64,000 bases of DNA from Streptomyces sp. NBC_00820 (lineage in GTDB: Bacteria > Actinomycetota > Actinomycetes > Streptomycetales > Streptomycetaceae): contig NZ_CP108882.1 in NCBI RefSeq assembly GCF_036347055.1, forward strand, positions 1,240,001-1,304,000, in the 5' to 3' direction. Shown piece by piece: positions 4,437 to 46,606 of this stretch. Both the position numbers and the translations under genes were made by a program. The notes under the pieces were generated by a model. That model was not told where the DNA came from. It ran no database searches and saw nothing but the letters and a program-made list of their open reading frames with translations. Positions within the stretch are counted from its first letter, which is position 1. Each line of letters begins with the position of its first letter.

Positions 4437-4515
4437 CGGACACCGGCACGGACACCAGTACGGGAACCAGTACGGGAACCAGTACGGGGACCGATGCGGA
4501 CACCGGACCGATGCG
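4437..4515. repeat. Short imperfect tandem repeats after the PAP2–kinase gene
   Basis: A 12-bp unit close to ACCAGTACGGGA is repeated about three times exactly. It is flanked by looser variants of the type ACCGGCACGGAC and ACCGATGCGGAC. The array is non-coding, between two convergent genes, and probably arose by slippage. Confidence 0.5.
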
Positions 4516-4620
4516 GACACGTTCGTCGGCACCCCGTCGCGGGTGCGCTCCTTCACACACGGTGCGCACCCGCTGCGAGGTGCCGTGATGGAGTTGAGGG
4601 GCCGCGTCCGCGAGCGGGCG

Positions 4621-4776
4621 TCACCAGTAGTGGCGACGGCCGCCGACGGCGTGACCGACCGAGCCGAGAATCCAGAGGATGAGTCCGATCACCACGAGGA
4701 TGATTCCGATTGTCCAGAGGATGCCTATTCCCGTGAGGAATCCGACGATCAGCAGGATGATCCCGAGGATGATCAT
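4621..4776 (-). CDS. Small hydrophobic membrane protein (DUF6131-like)
   Basis: 51 residues starting at the ATG at 4776, with GGAGG about five bases upstream. It is almost wholly two hydrophobic segments rich in Ile, Leu, Val and Gly (about residues 2–19 and 21–42), ending in a polar GGRRHYW tail. This matches the DUF6131-type small membrane proteins common in Streptomyces, whose function is unknown. The gene stands alone, convergent with the PAP2–kinase gene. Family assignment is from memory of its pattern. Confidence 0.75.
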   Translation of the reverse strand: MIILGIILLIVGFLTGIGILWTIGIILVVIGLILWILGSVGHAVGGRRHYW

Positions 4777-5221
4777 TTTGGCCTCCGGCGCCTTGTCCTG
4801 AGGAGGGGGACTGCCCTCCGTGTGCCTCTGCGCTCGCGTGACGCGCGCGTACGGACGTTCCCGCCTCGGGCACTGACCGCGAGGCGTGGCCGCTCCTCCT
4901 TCCCGGCTTTCCGATTCCTGCGCGAACGCCGAGTACCCCGATCGGCACGACGCATACAGCCTCACCCGTGCCCCGATCCCGACCGGCACGGACGGGGCCC
5001 GCGGGAGGCGGCTGAGCGGGCGCCCGGGCCGCCACCCCCATACAGCCCGCCCTCCTTGTGTGGCCCGCACACATGCCCCCTCCCACCCCCCGGTGCCTAA
5101 CGTGTGCGCCGCGAGGTCACCGTGTCCGGACCACCGAGACCACCGGGAACACCGGGAACACCGGGAACACCGGACGCGTGTGAACCGAGGACACCGATCG
5201 CGTGGACAGGGGGGCCGGAAC
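4777..5221. other. Intergenic region, no gene recognised
   Basis: This 445-bp stretch separates the small membrane protein (minus) from the lipase-like gene (plus) and must hold both promoters. Frames crossing it look like out-of-frame Arg/Pro-rich translations. Near 5142–5168 a 9-bp unit ACCGGGAAC is repeated three times. I could not assign promoter boxes with confidence. Confidence 0.5.
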
Positions 5222-16330: not shown

Positions 16331-17485
16331 ATGAAAAAAGGAATTCTGGCGGCCGCGATAACGGCGGTGGTTTCCGCAGGATCGACCGTCTGCCTCATTC
16401 CAGCCTCCCAGGCTTCCGCCGTTCCCACCGTAGTCCCCGCGGCGTCATGCCGTGTCCAGGGTGGGACGGTAAGCGGTAGCGGCTTCACTCCCAATCAGTC
16501 GTACAACGTCACGCGTAACGGCGCTTCCGTCAGCCGCATCTCCGCGGGGTCGAAGGGCGACATTCAGGTCCCGGTTTCCGGCGACGGCCCGGTTTCCGTA
16601 GGCACCGTCAAGTGCGGTTCGTCGGGTGCGGGTTCGGGCTCGGGCGCGACAGGCGGCGCCGCAGAGGCAACCGCGAAAGGCACAGCCGCGGCACAGCAGG
16701 CTGTACGCAGTGGCGCTTCCCAGGCGCAGGCCACCGCAATAGGACGGCAGGCCGCACAGGCGGAGGCGCAGAGGCTCGGGTTGCCGCCCTCCGTGGTGAA
16801 CCAGGTGACGAACAACGTCACGAACATCGTCAACAACACCATCAACGGAGGTCAGGGCAACACCATCGGTGGCACTCAGATCGGCGGCCAGGGGAACACC
16901 CAGGGCGGCACGCAGGGCGGAACCGGGAACACTCAGGGCGGGACGCAGGGCGGGACCGGGAACACCCAGGGCGGCACGCAAGGCGGTGGCACCGGCAGCA
17001 CCCAGGGCGGGACCCAGGGTGGCGGGACCGGCAGCACCCAAGGCGGCACGCAAGGCGGCGGGACCGGCAGCACCCAAGGCGGGACGCAGGGTGGCGGGAC
17101 CGGCAGCACCCAGGGCGGGACCCAGGGCGGCGGAACCGGCAGCACCCAAGGCGGCACGCAAGGCGGCGGCACGGGCAGCACGCAAGGCGGGACGCAGGGT
17201 GGCGGGACCGGCAGCACCCAGGGCGGGACCCAGGGCGGCGGAACCGGCAGCACCCAAGGCGGCACGCAAGGCGGCGGCACGGGCAGCACCCAGGGCGGGA
17301 CCCAGGGCGGCGGAACCGGCAGCACCCAAGGCGGCACGCAAGGCGGCGGCACGGGCAGCACCCAGGGCGGGACCCAGGGCGGCGGAACCGGCAGCACCCA
17401 AGGCGGAACCCAGGGCGGCGGCACGGGCAGCACCCAGGGCGGCACGCAAGGCGGCGCCACCGACACCACCAAGCCCATGCCTTGA
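16331..17485 (+). CDS. Secreted Gly/Thr/Gln-rich repeat protein (13 × 12-residue repeats)
   Basis: 384 residues. Residues 1–33 are a signal peptide (MKKGILAAAITAVVSAG … SQASAVP). About 38–95 is a small Ig-like or beta-rich head with two Cys (ASCRVQGG and GTVKCGSSG, probably a disulfide) and the pattern GSGFTPNQSYNVTRNG. About 100–165 is an Ala/Gln-rich helix followed by an Asn-rich stretch (VTNNVTNIVNNTINGG). From about 170 to the end runs NTQGGTQGG, then 13 near-identical units of GTGSTQGGTQGG. No sortase motif or membrane anchor is present. The unit resembles amyloid- or fibre-like low-complexity proteins; no known family recognised. It has a close neighbour of the same design at 17649. Confidence 0.85.
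   Translation: MKKGILAAAITAVVSAGSTVCLIPASQASAVPTVVPAASCRVQGGTVSGSGFTPNQSYNVTRNGASVSRISAGSKGDIQVPVSGDGPVSVGTVKCGSSGAGSGSGATGGAAEATAKGTAAAQQAVRSGASQAQATAIGRQAAQAEAQRLGLPPSVVNQVTNNVTNIVNNTINGGQGNTIGGTQIGGQGNTQGGTQGGTGNTQGGTQGGTGNTQGGTQGGGTGSTQGGTQGGGTGSTQGGTQGGGTGSTQGGTQGGGTGSTQGGTQGGGTGSTQGGTQGGGTGSTQGGTQGGGTGSTQGGTQGGGTGSTQGGTQGGGTGSTQGGTQGGGTGSTQGGTQGGGTGSTQGGTQGGGTGSTQGGTQGGGTGSTQGGTQGGATDTTKPMP
16982..17450 (+). repeat. 36-bp tandem repeat array coding GTGSTQGGTQGG
   Basis: Thirteen in-frame 36-bp units. In the second half two synonymous variants alternate, giving a 72-bp higher-order period, a sign of recent unequal exchange. Confidence 0.9.
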
Positions 17486-17648
17486 GGTGCGGGACGACCA
17501 GCGAAACCGCGGTAATGCGCTGCACTTTCACACATGGCCGGTCCCGATTCCAGAGACCGAGACGCCACGATGAGGGCCGCGCTCCGCGACTGCACATCAC
17601 TAGATGCCGAGCAATCGGTGCTTTGTACGAAGAGGAAGGGAGCACGTC

Positions 17649-19172
17649 GTGCGGCTCAGTCGGAAGCAGCAGACAGCCACAGCAATCGTGTCGGTGGTCC
17701 TCGCGGGAGGACTCGTCTCCGTCGGATCCCCTGCAACAGCGGCGCCTGCACCGAGCAGCACAGCCTCCAACGCTCAACTGCAGGCCGGCAACAGCTTGTC
17801 GAAGGGGCTGAAGCTAGTCCCGGAGAAGCCGAATTGCACGCGGGACAACCAGGGCCGCACGATCTGCAAGCCCAGCAAGCCGCGGGGAAACACCCAGGGC
17901 GGAACGCAGGGTGGCGGCCGGGGTAACACCCAGGGCGGGACCCAGGGCGGTGGCCGGGGTAACACCCAGGGCGGGACGCAGGGTGGCGGCGGCGGCAACA
18001 CCCAGGGCGGAACGCAGGGTGGCGGCGGCAACACCCAAGGCGGGACGCAGGGCGGCGGCACTGGCAACACCCAGGGCGGGACCCAGGGTGGCGGCCGGGG
18101 TAACACCCAGGGCGGCACGCAGGGTGGCGGCGGCGGTAACACCCAGGGCGGGACGCAGGGTGGCGGCGGCGGAAACACCCAAGGCGGCACCCAGGGCGGC
18201 GGCGGCGGAAACACCCAAGGCGGCACCCAGGGCGGCGGCGGCGGCAACACCCAAGGCGGGACGCAGGGTGGCGGCCGGGGTAACACCCAGGGCGGGACGC
18301 AGGGTGGCGGCGGCGGAAACACCCAAGGCGGCACCCAGGGCGGCGGCGGCGGAAACACCCAAGGCGGCACCCAGGGCGGCGGCGGAAACACCCAGGGCGG
18401 GACCCAGGGTGGCGGCCGGGGTAACACCCAGGGCGGCACGCAGGGTGGCGGCACTGGTAACACCCAGGGCGGGACGCAGGGTGGCGGCGGCGGCAACACC
18501 CAAGGCGGCACGCAAGGTGGCGGCGGCGGCAACACCCAAGGCGGCACCCAGGGTGGCGGCGGCGGCAACACCCAAGGCGGCACGCAAGGTGGCGGCCGGG
18601 GTAACACCCAGGGCGGCACGCAGGGTGGCGGCACTGGTAACACCCAGGGCGGGACGCAGGGTGGCGGCGGCGGCAACACCCAAGGCGGCACGCAGGGCGG
18701 TGGCGGCGGCGGAAACACCCAGGGCGGCACCCAGGGCGGCGGCGGCGGAAACACCCAGGGCGGCACCCAGGGCGGCGGCACTGGCAACACCCAAGGCGGC
18801 ACGCAGGGTGGCGGCCGGGGTAACACCCAGGGCGGAACGCAGGGTGGCGGCGGCGGCAACACCCAAGGCGGAACCCAGGGCGGCGGCACTGGCAACACCC
18901 AAGGCGGAACCCAGGGCGGCGGCACTGGCAACACCCAAGGCGGAACCCAGGGCGGCGGCACTGGCAACACCCAAGGCGGAACCCAGGGCGGCGGCACTGG
19001 CAACACCCAAGGCGGCACGCAAGGTGGCGGCGGCGGCAACACCCAAGGCGGCACGCAAGGTGGCGGCGGCGGCAACACCCAAGGCGGCACGCAAGGTGGC
19101 GGCGGCGGCAACACCCAAGGCGGCACGCAAGGTGGCGGCGGCGGCAACACCCAAGGCGGGACCCAGGGTTGA
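17649..19172 (+). CDS. Secreted Gly/Asn/Gln-rich repeat protein (36 × ~12-residue repeats)
   Basis: About 507 residues from the GTG at 17649, chosen because GGAAGGG lies about nine bases before it. The N-terminus VRLSRKQQTATAIVSVVLAG … PATAAPAPS is a signal peptide (cleavage near 31). A short linker follows with two Cys (KPNCTRDNQGRTICKPSKP) that could form a disulfide. From about residue 79 to the end there are 36 units of G[G/R/T]GNTQGGTQGG, most of 12 residues, two of 11 and one of 13. It lacks any anchor and ends within the repeat. Arg in some units gives a regular positive charge not present in the first protein. Function unknown; a secreted structural or adhesive fibre is plausible. Confidence 0.85.
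   Translation: MRLSRKQQTATAIVSVVLAGGLVSVGSPATAAPAPSSTASNAQLQAGNSLSKGLKLVPEKPNCTRDNQGRTICKPSKPRGNTQGGTQGGGRGNTQGGTQGGGRGNTQGGTQGGGGGNTQGGTQGGGGNTQGGTQGGGTGNTQGGTQGGGRGNTQGGTQGGGGGNTQGGTQGGGGGNTQGGTQGGGGGNTQGGTQGGGGGNTQGGTQGGGRGNTQGGTQGGGGGNTQGGTQGGGGGNTQGGTQGGGGNTQGGTQGGGRGNTQGGTQGGGTGNTQGGTQGGGGGNTQGGTQGGGGGNTQGGTQGGGGGNTQGGTQGGGRGNTQGGTQGGGTGNTQGGTQGGGGGNTQGGTQGGGGGGNTQGGTQGGGGGNTQGGTQGGGTGNTQGGTQGGGRGNTQGGTQGGGGGNTQGGTQGGGTGNTQGGTQGGGTGNTQGGTQGGGTGNTQGGTQGGGTGNTQGGTQGGGGGNTQGGTQGGGGGNTQGGTQGGGGGNTQGGTQGGGGGNTQGGTQG
17885..19170 (+). repeat. 36-bp tandem repeat array coding GGGNTQGGTQGG
   Basis: Thirty-six units, most 36 bp long. Runs of identical units (for example around 18870–19010 and 19012–19160) show recent local duplication. 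Variation is mostly at one codon (Gly, Arg or Thr) and at synonymous positions. Confidence 0.92.
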
Positions 19173-19194
19173 TCGTTCCTTCGGATGAGGTCAG

Positions 19195-19225
19195 CACCTC
19201 GCGGAGCCAAGCGCTCCGCGAGGTG
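19195..19225 (+). terminator. Hairpin terminator after the 36-repeat gene
   Basis: CACCTCGCGGAG (19195–19206) and CTCCGCGAGGTG (19214–19225) form a perfect 12-bp stem with a 7-base loop, 22 bases after the stop. It argues against a start at 19185 for the next gene. Confidence 0.8.
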
Positions 19226-19253
19226 CGCCGAGCTGCTGGGAGTGAGGAAAACG

Positions 19254-19592
19254 GTGCGAAGCGCGCGTCCTGTGGCTGCGGCCTGTGTCTGCCTGTCGAC
19301 CATCGGCGTCGGCAGCGCGGCGGGGGTCGCACCTGCCCAAAGTTCCCCCGCCCCGCAGCACAGCACATCGCAGGCCGGGGCCGCACCTGCCAAGTCGACG
19401 CTTCGGTGCTACGCGACGCGGAGCGATCCCGGGACGGTCGTGTGCTACCGCGTCTCGGCGAAGACCGAGTTCAGGCACGGCGCGCTGGTCTACGTCCCCA
19501 TCCTCATCCAGGTGCCCACGCCCGCGGCTCCGCCGTCGGTGACCGTCGTCGACAGCCTGAGCGACATCCGCCCGAACGCGGGGCCCGGGTGA
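19254..19592 (+). CDS. Small secreted protein beside the repeat proteins
   Basis: 112 residues from the GTG at 19254, which has GAGG six bases upstream and lies beyond the terminator hairpin. VRSARPVAAACVCLSTIGVG … GVAPAQS is a signal peptide. The mature part of about 80 residues has two Cys (TLRCYATRSDPGTVVCYRVS), then VYVPILIQVPTPAAPPSV and an acidic end. No family recognised. Its size, signal peptide and Cys pair recall the heads of the two repeat proteins, so it may belong to the same surface structure. Confidence 0.65.
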   Translation: MRSARPVAAACVCLSTIGVGSAAGVAPAQSSPAPQHSTSQAGAAPAKSTLRCYATRSDPGTVVCYRVSAKTEFRHGALVYVPILIQVPTPAAPPSVTVVDSLSDIRPNAGPG

Positions 19593-19634: not shown

Positions 19635-20261
19635 TCACTCCATGGTGAGGTTGTCCAGTACGCCGCACTTCATGGCAAGGCGGGTGAGGTCGGCCCTCCG
19701 GCGGGAGCCGCTCTTCCTGCGCAGACGCTCCAGGTGCGTGTGAACCGTGTTTTCCGTGATGTTCAGCCTGGTGGCGATCTCGCGATCCGTCGCCCCGCCG
19801 GCGACCAGCTGCAGGATCTGCTTCTCACGGTCGGTGATGTGAGGCGGCGGCGTCGGCAGACTTCGGCCGGCGAGACTGGCACCGAAGTAGCTCCGCCCCG
19901 AGGCGACGGCGCGGATGGCTCTCACCAGCTCCGAGCCCTCGGTCTGCCGGCTCACATAGCCGCGGGCACCGGCCTTGATGCAGAGGACGGCGTCGGTCTG
20001 CGCCTTCGAGGTGGACAGCACGATGACCGCGTACCCCTTGCGATGCAACTGGGCCACTTCGTCGGAGGCCACCTGGCCGGACGCCTGCAGGTTGATGAGC
20101 ACGACGATCTCGACGTCATGCGCCTGCCGGATCAGCTCCTTCACGTTTTTGATGAAGAACGTGATCCGCAGGTCCGGTTGTGTGTTGATCGCCTGCGCGA
20201 GACCGAGCTGAAGCAACGGCCAGTCGCAGACAACGGCCATGGACGTCACAGAAGAGCTCAT
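19635..20261 (-). CDS. LuxR/NarL-type response regulator with atypical receiver
   Basis: 208 residues. Residues 1–120 have the receiver fold (MAVVCDWPLLQLGLAQ start; LSTSKAQTDAVLCIKAGARGYVSR, with Lys in the usual place). At the phospho-acceptor position the strand reads IVVLINLQ, so Asn57 replaces the expected Asp, and the first acidic pair is reduced to a single Asp. Residues about 140–208 are a LuxR HTH: ITDREKQILQLVAGGATDREIATRLNITENTVHTHL in pattern. Start at 20261 has GGAG six bases upstream. It lies convergent to the repeat-protein cluster. It probably works without phosphorylation or binds a small ligand. No sensor kinase is near. Confidence 0.87.
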   Translation of the reverse strand: MSSSVTSMAVVCDWPLLQLGLAQAINTQPDLRITFFIKNVKELIRQAHDVEIVVLINLQASGQVASDEVAQLHRKGYAVIVLSTSKAQTDAVLCIKAGARGYVSRQTEGSELVRAIRAVASGRSYFGASLAGRSLPTPPPHITDREKQILQLVAGGATDREIATRLNITENTVHTHLERLRRKSGSRRRADLTRLAMKCGVLDNLTME

Positions 20262-45292: not shown

Positions 45293-46606
45293 ATGAAGCT
45301 GAAGATCTCTCCAGCGACCCACCGCCGTACCATGTCCGGCTTGCTGGCCTCGGCCCTCGCCGCGACGGTCTCCGCCGCAATGGTCGTCATGACGCCGACG
45401 TCGGCGTCGGCGATCGCATTGCCCGTACCCCTGGGCACAGCCGCCGGCTACTCCGTTCTGGCGGGTCAGGGAGTCACCAACACCGGCAATTCGGTGCTCG
45501 CCCACGACCTCGGGACGCACCCGAACCCGGCCATCTCCGGATTCCCGCCCGGCCAGGTGGGTGGCGCCGTGCACCGCGCGGACGCTGCGGCCCTCCAGGC
45601 CAAGAGCGACCTGCTCGTGGCATACAACAACGCCGCCGGCCAGCCCCAGGACTTCCCGCTTCCCCCGGGAATCGGCGGAGGCCCTCCGCTGCTGCCCGGC
45701 GTCTACCACGCCACGGCCGGTCTCGGCATCACCGGCGACCTGGTCCTGGACGGCCAGGGAAGCTCGGACGGGGTCTGGGTCTTCCAGATTCCCGAAGCCC
45801 TGACGACGGCGACCTCCAGCCGGATTCTCCTCACGAACGGCGCTTCGGCGTGCAACGTGTACTGGGAGATCGGCAGTTCGGCGACGCTCGGCGTCACCTC
45901 CAGCTTCGTGGGCACCCTCATGACCGGGATCTCCATCACCGCGAACCAGGGGGCGAACATCGAGGGCCGGCTGCTGGCCCAGGTGGGGGCCGTGACCCTC
46001 AACAACAACAGGGTCTTCCTCAACGGGTGCGCGAGTTCCACCACGGGTGGAACGACGACGGGCACCACCACCGGCACCACCACCGGCACCACCACCGGCA
46101 CGACGACCGGAACCACCACCGGCACGACCGCGGGCACGAGCGGAGGGCTCCTCGGCGGCGGCCTCGTCACCGGCGGCCTGCTCGGCGGCCCCATCGTCGG
46201 CACCGGCGGCACCTCGGGCAACACCGCCGGCAACACGTCCGGCAACACCGCGGGCAACACCGCGGGGAACACCACCTCCGGGAACACCTCGGGCAACACC
46301 GCCGGGAACACCACCGGCGGAATCACCACGGGCGGGAACACCACAGGCGGGAACACCACGGGCGGGAACACCACGGGCGGCAACGGCCACGGGCCGGGCA
46401 AGCCGGACCACGGTGGCAAGCCTGGAAAGCCGGCCCACGGCAGCAAGCCCGACCACGGGCAGCACATCCCTCCCGGCAAGCCCGAGGGCGAGGACGAGCA
46501 CGGCCAGCAGGAGGACCACGGCCAGCAGTCCGACGAGGACTACGGCTACGCGGAGGCGCCCAAGGGCTACAAGGGCGACGACCACTCCGAGAGCTACGAG
46601 GGCTAA
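45293..46606 (+). CDS. Secreted DUF3494 (ice-binding-like) surface protein with low-complexity tail
   Basis: 437 residues. MKLKISPATHRRTMSGLLAS … SASAIALP is a signal peptide (about 1–42). About 45–245 is a DUF3494 beta-helix: YSVLAGQGVTNTGNSVLAHDLG, LLPGVYHATAGLGITGDLVLDGQG, VWVFQIPEALTTATSSRILLTNGASACNVYWEIGSSATLG and ANIEGRLLAQVGAVTLNNNRVF in pattern, with two Cys. From about 250 come GTTT repeats, NTAGNTSGN and NTTGG repeats, then a charged end rich in His, Lys, Asp and Glu. The domain is known from ice-binding and adhesin-like proteins; here adhesion is more likely than ice binding. No anchor is visible. The start has a poor ribosome site. Confidence 0.85.
   Translation: MKLKISPATHRRTMSGLLASALAATVSAAMVVMTPTSASAIALPVPLGTAAGYSVLAGQGVTNTGNSVLAHDLGTHPNPAISGFPPGQVGGAVHRADAAALQAKSDLLVAYNNAAGQPQDFPLPPGIGGGPPLLPGVYHATAGLGITGDLVLDGQGSSDGVWVFQIPEALTTATSSRILLTNGASACNVYWEIGSSATLGVTSSFVGTLMTGISITANQGANIEGRLLAQVGAVTLNNNRVFLNGCASSTTGGTTTGTTTGTTTGTTTGTTTGTTTGTTAGTSGGLLGGGLVTGGLLGGPIVGTGGTSGNTAGNTSGNTAGNTAGNTTSGNTSGNTAGNTTGGITTGGNTTGGNTTGGNTTGGNGHGPGKPDHGGKPGKPAHGSKPDHGQHIPPGKPEGEDEHGQQEDHGQQSDEDYGYAEAPKGYKGDDHSESYEG

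Follow-up and report, generated by a model that had tools for sequence, protein, structure and literature searches.

Among described bacterial surface layers, the exosporium of Bacillus and the amyloid coats of Streptomyces are the nearest comparisons for the locus presented here. A study of the exosporium describes BclA of the nap as collagen-like with a C-terminal domain, and BxpB as a trimeric protein with 11 strands (PMC10470788). Chaplins, rodlins and other functional amyloids of Streptomyces are small secreted proteins coating the surface (PMC5314377, PMC7766987). For regulation, the comparison is with BldM and WhiI, which are presented as orphan atypical response regulators found in all sequenced streptomycetes (PMC4125116). 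Our locus lies in the window, a 64,000-nucleotide stretch of the Streptomyces sp. NBC_00820 genome (NZ_CP108882.1, positions 1,240,001 to 1,304,000), i.e., at 1.24-1.30 Mb in a single contig of 8.1 Mb. It comprises three adjacent open reading frames (ORFs) on the forward strand coding for the putative secreted proteins P1, P2 and P3, as the sequence-only reading had proposed, and a convergently transcribed regulator gene. P1 and P2 carry long repetitive tails. We find that P3, rather than the repeat, is the constant part of a recurrent system, which is real, belongs to the broad kind of secreted repeat-tailed surface proteins and is apparently undescribed, judged from open-licence literature and Pfam/NCBIfam.

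BclA is likened to the tailed proteins as a surface protein with a short N-terminal part and a repeat stalk, held by a separate small beta protein (PMC10470788); a tailed protein and P3 may work in a similar way. The likeness is one of description: the P3 model has 4 strands versus 11 reported there for BxpB (PMC10470788), and no homology was found, BxpB and BclA not having been compared directly. The tails of P1 and P2 are built not of the Gly-X-Y collagen repeat but of a 12-residue [NS]TQGGTQGGGxG unit without a Pfam Collagen match, and a second P3 of the same genome matches Collagen only at E 0.005, below the cut-off. P1, P2 and P3 yielded nothing above the curated cut-offs of Pfam and NCBIfam, so the earlier impression that they match no known family stands; at E <= 1 the number of Pfam families matched was 0, which separates them from chaplins and rodlins, as does the lack of amyloid-like composition in several tails. 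The neocarzinostatin/macromomycin apoprotein fold likewise gave no Pfam match at E <= 1, and the structural comparison with it gave a Z at the tool's warning level for a common arrangement.

P3 (19185..19592, + strand) is a small two-Cys beta protein of 135 aa, putatively secreted; its true start is probably GTG 19242 by homology. Signal peptides, here and below, were called by sequence inspection and a home-made rule rather than a dedicated predictor. The sequence-only reading had placed the repeat proteins at the core of the cluster; across genomes it is the small Cys protein that is conserved and the repeats that vary. An alignment of 32 P3 sequences contains two invariant cysteines in a CY-x10-CY arrangement, followed by a conserved VYVPILIQVPTP-type segment, and the AlphaFold model has a confident four-strand core. 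Of 392 Streptomyces genomes searched with a single sequence, 20 (~5%) gave a P3 match, three of them marginal (E 2.5e-4 to 9.8e-4), and a profile search detected P3 in 14 of 246, one at 6.8e-4. In a class-wide sample (148 genomes, 81 genera) P3 was found in its own genome only; in an order sample representing five genera it was found in 5 of 119 genomes, all belonging to Streptomyces. A scan of named genomes, based on one peptide pattern, gave 23 P3 loci, all in Streptomyces. A mobile-element origin was considered and rejected, as P3 was not found in plasmid records or IMG/VR viral contigs.

P3 is statistically associated with the heads of tailed proteins. In these comparisons a genome counts as P3-negative when it gave no P3 match in the single-sequence, order-sample or profile searches, and the marginal genomes (G019, G087, G270) are excluded from the 77-genome head, regulator and motif counts. 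Some negatives may hide diverged P3 genes, since the single-sequence search passed over three genomes (G003, G191, G243) in which the profile later detected P3. The P1 head occurs in 9 of the 392 genomes, 8 of which are among the 20 P3-positive ones (Fisher 9e-11). This is not merely close linkage, because in G160 the two lie on separate contigs. Six strong matches to the poly-Asn head fall in five P3-positive genomes and in G020, where P3 was not detected; both strong matches to the TPQ head are in P3-positive genomes. Weaker poly-Asn-head matches (E 1e-9 and above), which look like signal peptides, and five weak TPQ-head matches were dropped.

After removal of duplicates, 37 distinct P3 loci were available; they are not phylogenetically independent. 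Within 4.5 kb of P3, 24 of the 37 contain at least one secreted ORF in which a 60-residue stretch was detected as highly repetitive. Detector thresholds and an antisense-frame filter were set after the first examples had been seen, and the identical detector and filter were applied to the background. That background, 800 kb of random Streptomyces DNA taken as 40 stretches (one start moved by hand) out of 10 genomes, four of them P3-positive, yielded only two ORFs, both of which look like frame artefacts; the random expectation is 0.02 per locus. The outer parts of the same P3 loci (316 kb) also gave two: a third NTQGG protein of S. olivochromogenes and a protein of the window itself. The latter (45293-46603, +) is a secreted Ice_binding protein (PF11999, E 7e-58), thus with a head of known family, and has a low-complexity GNTAGNTSGNTTGG stretch near its C-terminus. 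A gene for a secreted SSI (subtilisin-inhibitor-like, PF00720) protein is located ~1-3 kb from P3 in four of the 37 loci (L038, L040, L043, L061), whereas the 40 background stretches lack one. We do not use it as evidence; it is perhaps a matter of shared synteny or of protease protection of the coat.

The same head is found with chemically different tails. In the listed tailed proteins the head is N-terminal and the tail C-terminal. On the P1 head the tail is of NTQGG type in the window and in L086; at other loci it is GTQPTTTTT (L066), PGGTTTT (L067), GGETKP (L048), GQETKP (L045), QAPG (L042), AANPQGQPP (L046), GQTPT (L070) or GGTPT (L085), and in L050, where P3 was not found, a poly-Gln run. 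The tail on a second head (MF..R......RIAG.SC) is NTQGG in S. olivochromogenes; in S. malaysiense and G307 that head bears NTPNTPNTPGGGG-type tails. Conversely, one tail may be placed on unlike heads within a genome: three heads share NTQGG in S. olivochromogenes, and two share TPN in S. malaysiense and in G307. P2-type heads were seen with NTQGG only, and poly-Asn heads with poly-Asn only. In five loci (L049, L147, L148, L149, L151), all beside the pseudo-receiver regulator gene, the tail is borne by the P3 domain itself, and the neighbourhood yielded no further tailed protein. Fusions of this kind speak for joint action of P3 and the tails. In G020, the genome with a poly-Asn head and no detected P3, the poly-Asn array (L194, 7953-8486) switches reading frame midway. 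This fits a joint loss of the head/P3 pair, and an error in the draft assembly is also possible. A second poly-Asn secreted protein is encoded ~3 kb away (4490-4939).

In the window, P1 (384 aa; 16331..17485, +) consists of a predicted signal peptide, a two-Cys Ig-like head, a helical region and a tail of 16 STQGG/NTQGG units (16897..17458, +). The boundaries of the segment 16436..16636 (+) are taken from a structure model in which 113 of 158 residues have pLDDT 70-90 and none exceeds 90; the predicted three-helix region that follows (16643..16846, +) includes a conserved RGASPQQA-type segment. P2 (522 aa; 17604..19172, +; true start probably GTG 17652) has a short two-Cys head and a tail of 36 NTQGGTQGGGxG units (17890..19169, +). 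Tandem Repeats Finder (TRF) reports one 36-bp (12-residue) array at 16897-19168, spanning from P1 into P2. Exact counting confirms the 36 copies initially reported for P2 and corrects the 13 given for P1: its tail has 13 STQGGTQG and 3 NTQGGTQG units, so that the former number covers the S-type alone. Successive units are 12 residues apart in 13 of the 15 P1 intervals and in 32 of the 35 P2 intervals, the others being two of 11 residues in P1, and two of 11 and one of 13 in P2.

Codon usage in the arrays points to selection on the protein. Pairwise comparison of the 8-residue core of the 36 P2 units gave 1515 synonymous and 0 nonsynonymous codon differences, while the spacer varies (GGGG 17, GGTG 8, GGRG 7 of 35). 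In the P1 core there are 322 synonymous and 39 nonsynonymous differences, and all 39 are the choice between N and S. Because the P2 core varies only synonymously while the adjoining spacer changes, the repeat looks to be held by selection on the protein, beyond chance or neutral slippage.

The repeat proved to be a poor handle for homologue searches. When the own genome was searched with the whole P1, the matches besides P1 were three fragments of the P2 array and a single further NTQGG protein, so heads and P3 were used as handles instead. A search for homologous proteins with the P1 head found (7998 candidates sharing most words were scored) just two proteins, both labelled partial, and is therefore a poor guide to distribution. 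An NTQGG protein of the own genome (L052 7799-8278, ~5.09 Mb) is putatively secreted; its NTQGGTQGA/NVQGGTQGA stretch is short, its C-terminal end is hydrophobic, and no P3 was found beside it. Its head is similar to that of an NTQGG protein in S. olivochromogenes. Thus P1, P2 and the 5.09 Mb protein have the same tail type.

The tails differ widely in composition and have some physical properties in common. The 22 tails measured are 97-460 residues long, contain no Cys and have an absolute net charge of at most 0.16 per residue, at most 2% aromatic and at most 12% aliphatic residues. At the same time N+Q ranges from 0.00 to 0.98, P from 0 to 0.37 and G from 0 to 0.54. Mean hydropathy is negative in 21 of the 22. 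What they share is the character of a little-charged polymer that is probably disordered and hydrated.

The regulator gene next to P3 (19635..20288, - strand; probable start ATG at 20261) codes for a protein of NarL architecture, i.e., a receiver followed by a GerE helix-turn-helix domain. GerE is matched at 6e-14 and Response_reg at 7e-5, below its cut-off; the best match in the Protein Data Bank (PDB) is NarL (8e-19). Its receiver has Asn at the position of the NarL phospho-Asp, in agreement with the altered receiver noticed at the outset. When 12 copies of the regulator are read against the NarL alignment, the Asp is kept in one (L037) and replaced by N, S, A, G or H in the other 11. No kinase-family match in Pfam was obtained for the two genes upstream of the window regulator. 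Such a protein is related in type (NarL/FixJ) to BldM and WhiI and resembles WhiI in its degenerate phosphorylation pocket (PMC4125116). In contrast to the universal presence stated there for BldM and WhiI (PMC4125116), the pseudo-receiver regulator reaches E <= 1e-30 in 11 of the 77 genomes, and every one of these has P3 (11 of 21 P3-positive versus 0 of 56 without detected P3; Fisher 5e-8), which bears out the view of the cluster as part of a recurrent secreted system with a regulator. Its gene lies within ~0.7 kb of P3 in 12 of the 37 P3 loci. Eight other loci, which are the eight poly-Asn loci, have a gene for an 860-residue AAA-LuxR regulator within ~2.7 kb.

Three regulator genes lie apart from known P3 genes. 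The prediction made for them, a neighbouring protein of P3 type fused to a tail, was not borne out. In G180 and G102 the neighbour is a secreted, repeat-tailed protein, but its head is of another, Ig-like type (giving a sub-threshold CarboxypepD_reg match in G180) and its tail is poly-Gln or QQQQQGGGGG; in G168 no such neighbour was found. Comparing by eye the sequences upstream of seven tailed genes gave a two-box pattern, TYCYNCCC-N13-17-TTYYNCCYCTKG. It matches eight distinct loci: at five it lies upstream of a P3-tail gene, at two upstream of a tailed gene with an Ig-type head, and at L038 upstream of an untailed P3; the L038 site had no part in defining the pattern. No match occurs in 1.6 million strand-bases of background. 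In the 77 whole genomes there are 13 sites, 8 at loci of the system and 5 elsewhere, and a reversed control pattern also gives 13; isolated hits are therefore regarded as chance. The motif differs from the BldM consensus as given in the BldM/WhiI study (PMC4125116). In the own genome its sole site is located upstream of the P3-tail gene at 3.92 Mb (L147 7949-8846), where a second regulator/P3 pair has the P3 fused to an APAGNP tail. For the NTQGG lineage, alignment of the regions upstream of the regulator and P1/P2 gave no nameable box.

We consider it an even chance that the locus is one case of a modular secreted-polymer system of Streptomyces. In such a system P3, small and secreted, would be the constant part, and at least one secreted protein, built of a small head at its N-terminus (Ig-like in P1) and a low-complexity tail at its C-terminus, would make up the variable part. 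The tails would most likely act through their physical character and not their exact sequence, forming a hydrated, disordered, little-charged polymer layer, a brush or mesh around hyphae or spores. Heads and P3 could provide the structured base holding this layer, and the pseudo-receiver NarL-type regulator, or the AAA-LuxR protein in the poly-Asn version, may turn the system on at some stage of the life cycle.

Several observations speak against this explanation. Neither an anchor nor a cell-wall domain was identified, which makes the location on the hypha a guess, and P3 has no usable PDB match and no recognised fold. Neither regulator was present in the stretch covered at 17 of the 37 P3 loci, and the two-box motif is absent from the P1-P3 cluster of the window; control of the cluster by the neighbouring regulator thus stays an inference. 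Not every tail is strongly hydrophilic (mean hydropathy +0.11 in L151 and -0.29 in L147), some have a hydrophobic segment in place of the repeat at their end (L034, L038, L054, L055), and matching of tails within a genome is not universal, as shown by the APAGNP tail of the second P3 in the own genome. The repeat detector misses 13 of the 37 loci. At four of these (L033, L065, L068, L150) no tailed gene was found, L068 holding 100 N, nor was one found at L044, a contig end. As to the other misses, the contig ends near P3 in L035, L056 and L072, with antisense frames of a repeat or a P1-type head visible; in L047 and L070 a P1 head is followed by an N stretch; in L147 and L151 P3 has its own Ala-containing tail, excluded by the hydrophobicity filter; and the NQNNQANGASGG protein of L075 is just above the threshold. 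In L086 the contig ends inside the NTQGG tail, and L035 starts in repeat-like sequence. Because contigs break off or contain N stretches within or next to repeat genes (L086, L035/L063, L047, L070), counts of the system from draft genomes are probably too low.

The sequence-only reading had also seen the repeat proteins as fibre-forming. A functional amyloid, in which N/Q/G repeats stack as prion-like cross-beta fibrils that P3 nucleates or caps, as in curli or chaplin/rodlin layers, is an unlikely explanation for the system as a whole. The poly-Asn (N+Q 0.67-0.70) and poly-Gln (0.98) tails are prion-like in composition, the NTQGG tails less so (0.18-0.34), and the use of one repeat on unlike heads within a locus is what co-assembly would favour. 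However, other tails on the P1 head (GGTPT, PGGTTTT, PTTTTT, ETKP, QAPG) have N+Q of 0.00-0.16 and are rich in Pro, Thr or charge, aromatic and aliphatic residues are scarce, and P1-P3 have no Pfam family match. Judged by composition, without an amyloid predictor, an amyloid-like repeat is not conserved across the 22 tails, so the fibre claim is not supported: N/Q, Gly and Pro differ too widely for an amyloid fibre to unify them. Cross-beta amyloid is plausible for poly-Gln or poly-Asn and hardly so for GGETKP or GGTPT. Somewhat less probable still is that each tail acts as an entropic spring or a long spacer, keeping carbohydrate- or surface-binding heads off the cell, without a coat function. 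This would suit the Gly+Pro content of the NTQGG, GGTPT and TPNTPNTPGGGG tails (0.44-0.59), the N-terminal position of the heads and the hydrophobic ends of the four tails mentioned above, each a possible anchor; against it, many tails terminate freely within the repeat with no further domain, and in the P3 fusions the tail sits behind P3 with no other domain.

A secreted antagonism or defence module, with P3 or a head as effector and the tail as a delivery or decoy part, seems improbable. It would account for the patchy distribution (20 of 392 genomes), rapid change and dedicated regulators, and would find a use for the protease-inhibitor gene near P3 in four loci, but no catalytic or pore domain was found in the scanned proteins with Pfam/NCBIfam, an immunity-like partner was sought by eye only, and P3 was not found in plasmid records or viral contigs. 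Most disfavoured, and very improbable in our view, is that the arrays are by-products of slippage-prone GC-rich minisatellites lacking a selected protein function. Arrays do seem to break assemblies (L086, L035) and one poly-Asn array is frame-broken. Yet the P2 core varies at synonymous positions alone, the arrays are associated with P3 and a regulator across species, and the frame-broken array belongs to the sole genome, of the six with a strong poly-Asn head match, where P3 was not found.

Returning to the polymer coat, a more specific form of it is possible, which we put forward tentatively: selection may fix the physical class of the secreted polymer (long, little-charged, mostly hydrophilic and disordered) and not its sequence, making a natural "plug-in polymer brush". 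This would be a bacterial surface system of a new category. Chemically unrelated tails (poly-Gln, poly-Asn, NTQGG, TPN, ETKP, QAPG and PTTTTT) would then replace each other on conserved heads, while the docking protein next to them would be conserved and the set would have a pseudo-receiver regulator of its own. The system may have escaped notice because repeats break draft assemblies and mislead homology searches. If the proposal is true, a single genus offers a natural swap series in which some ten polymer tails of differing chemistry sit on one head, and the selected physical property of an extracellular disordered tail, usually addressed with designed polymers, would become directly testable. 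It would also mean that the best-studied developmental bacteria have an additional regulated surface or matrix system.

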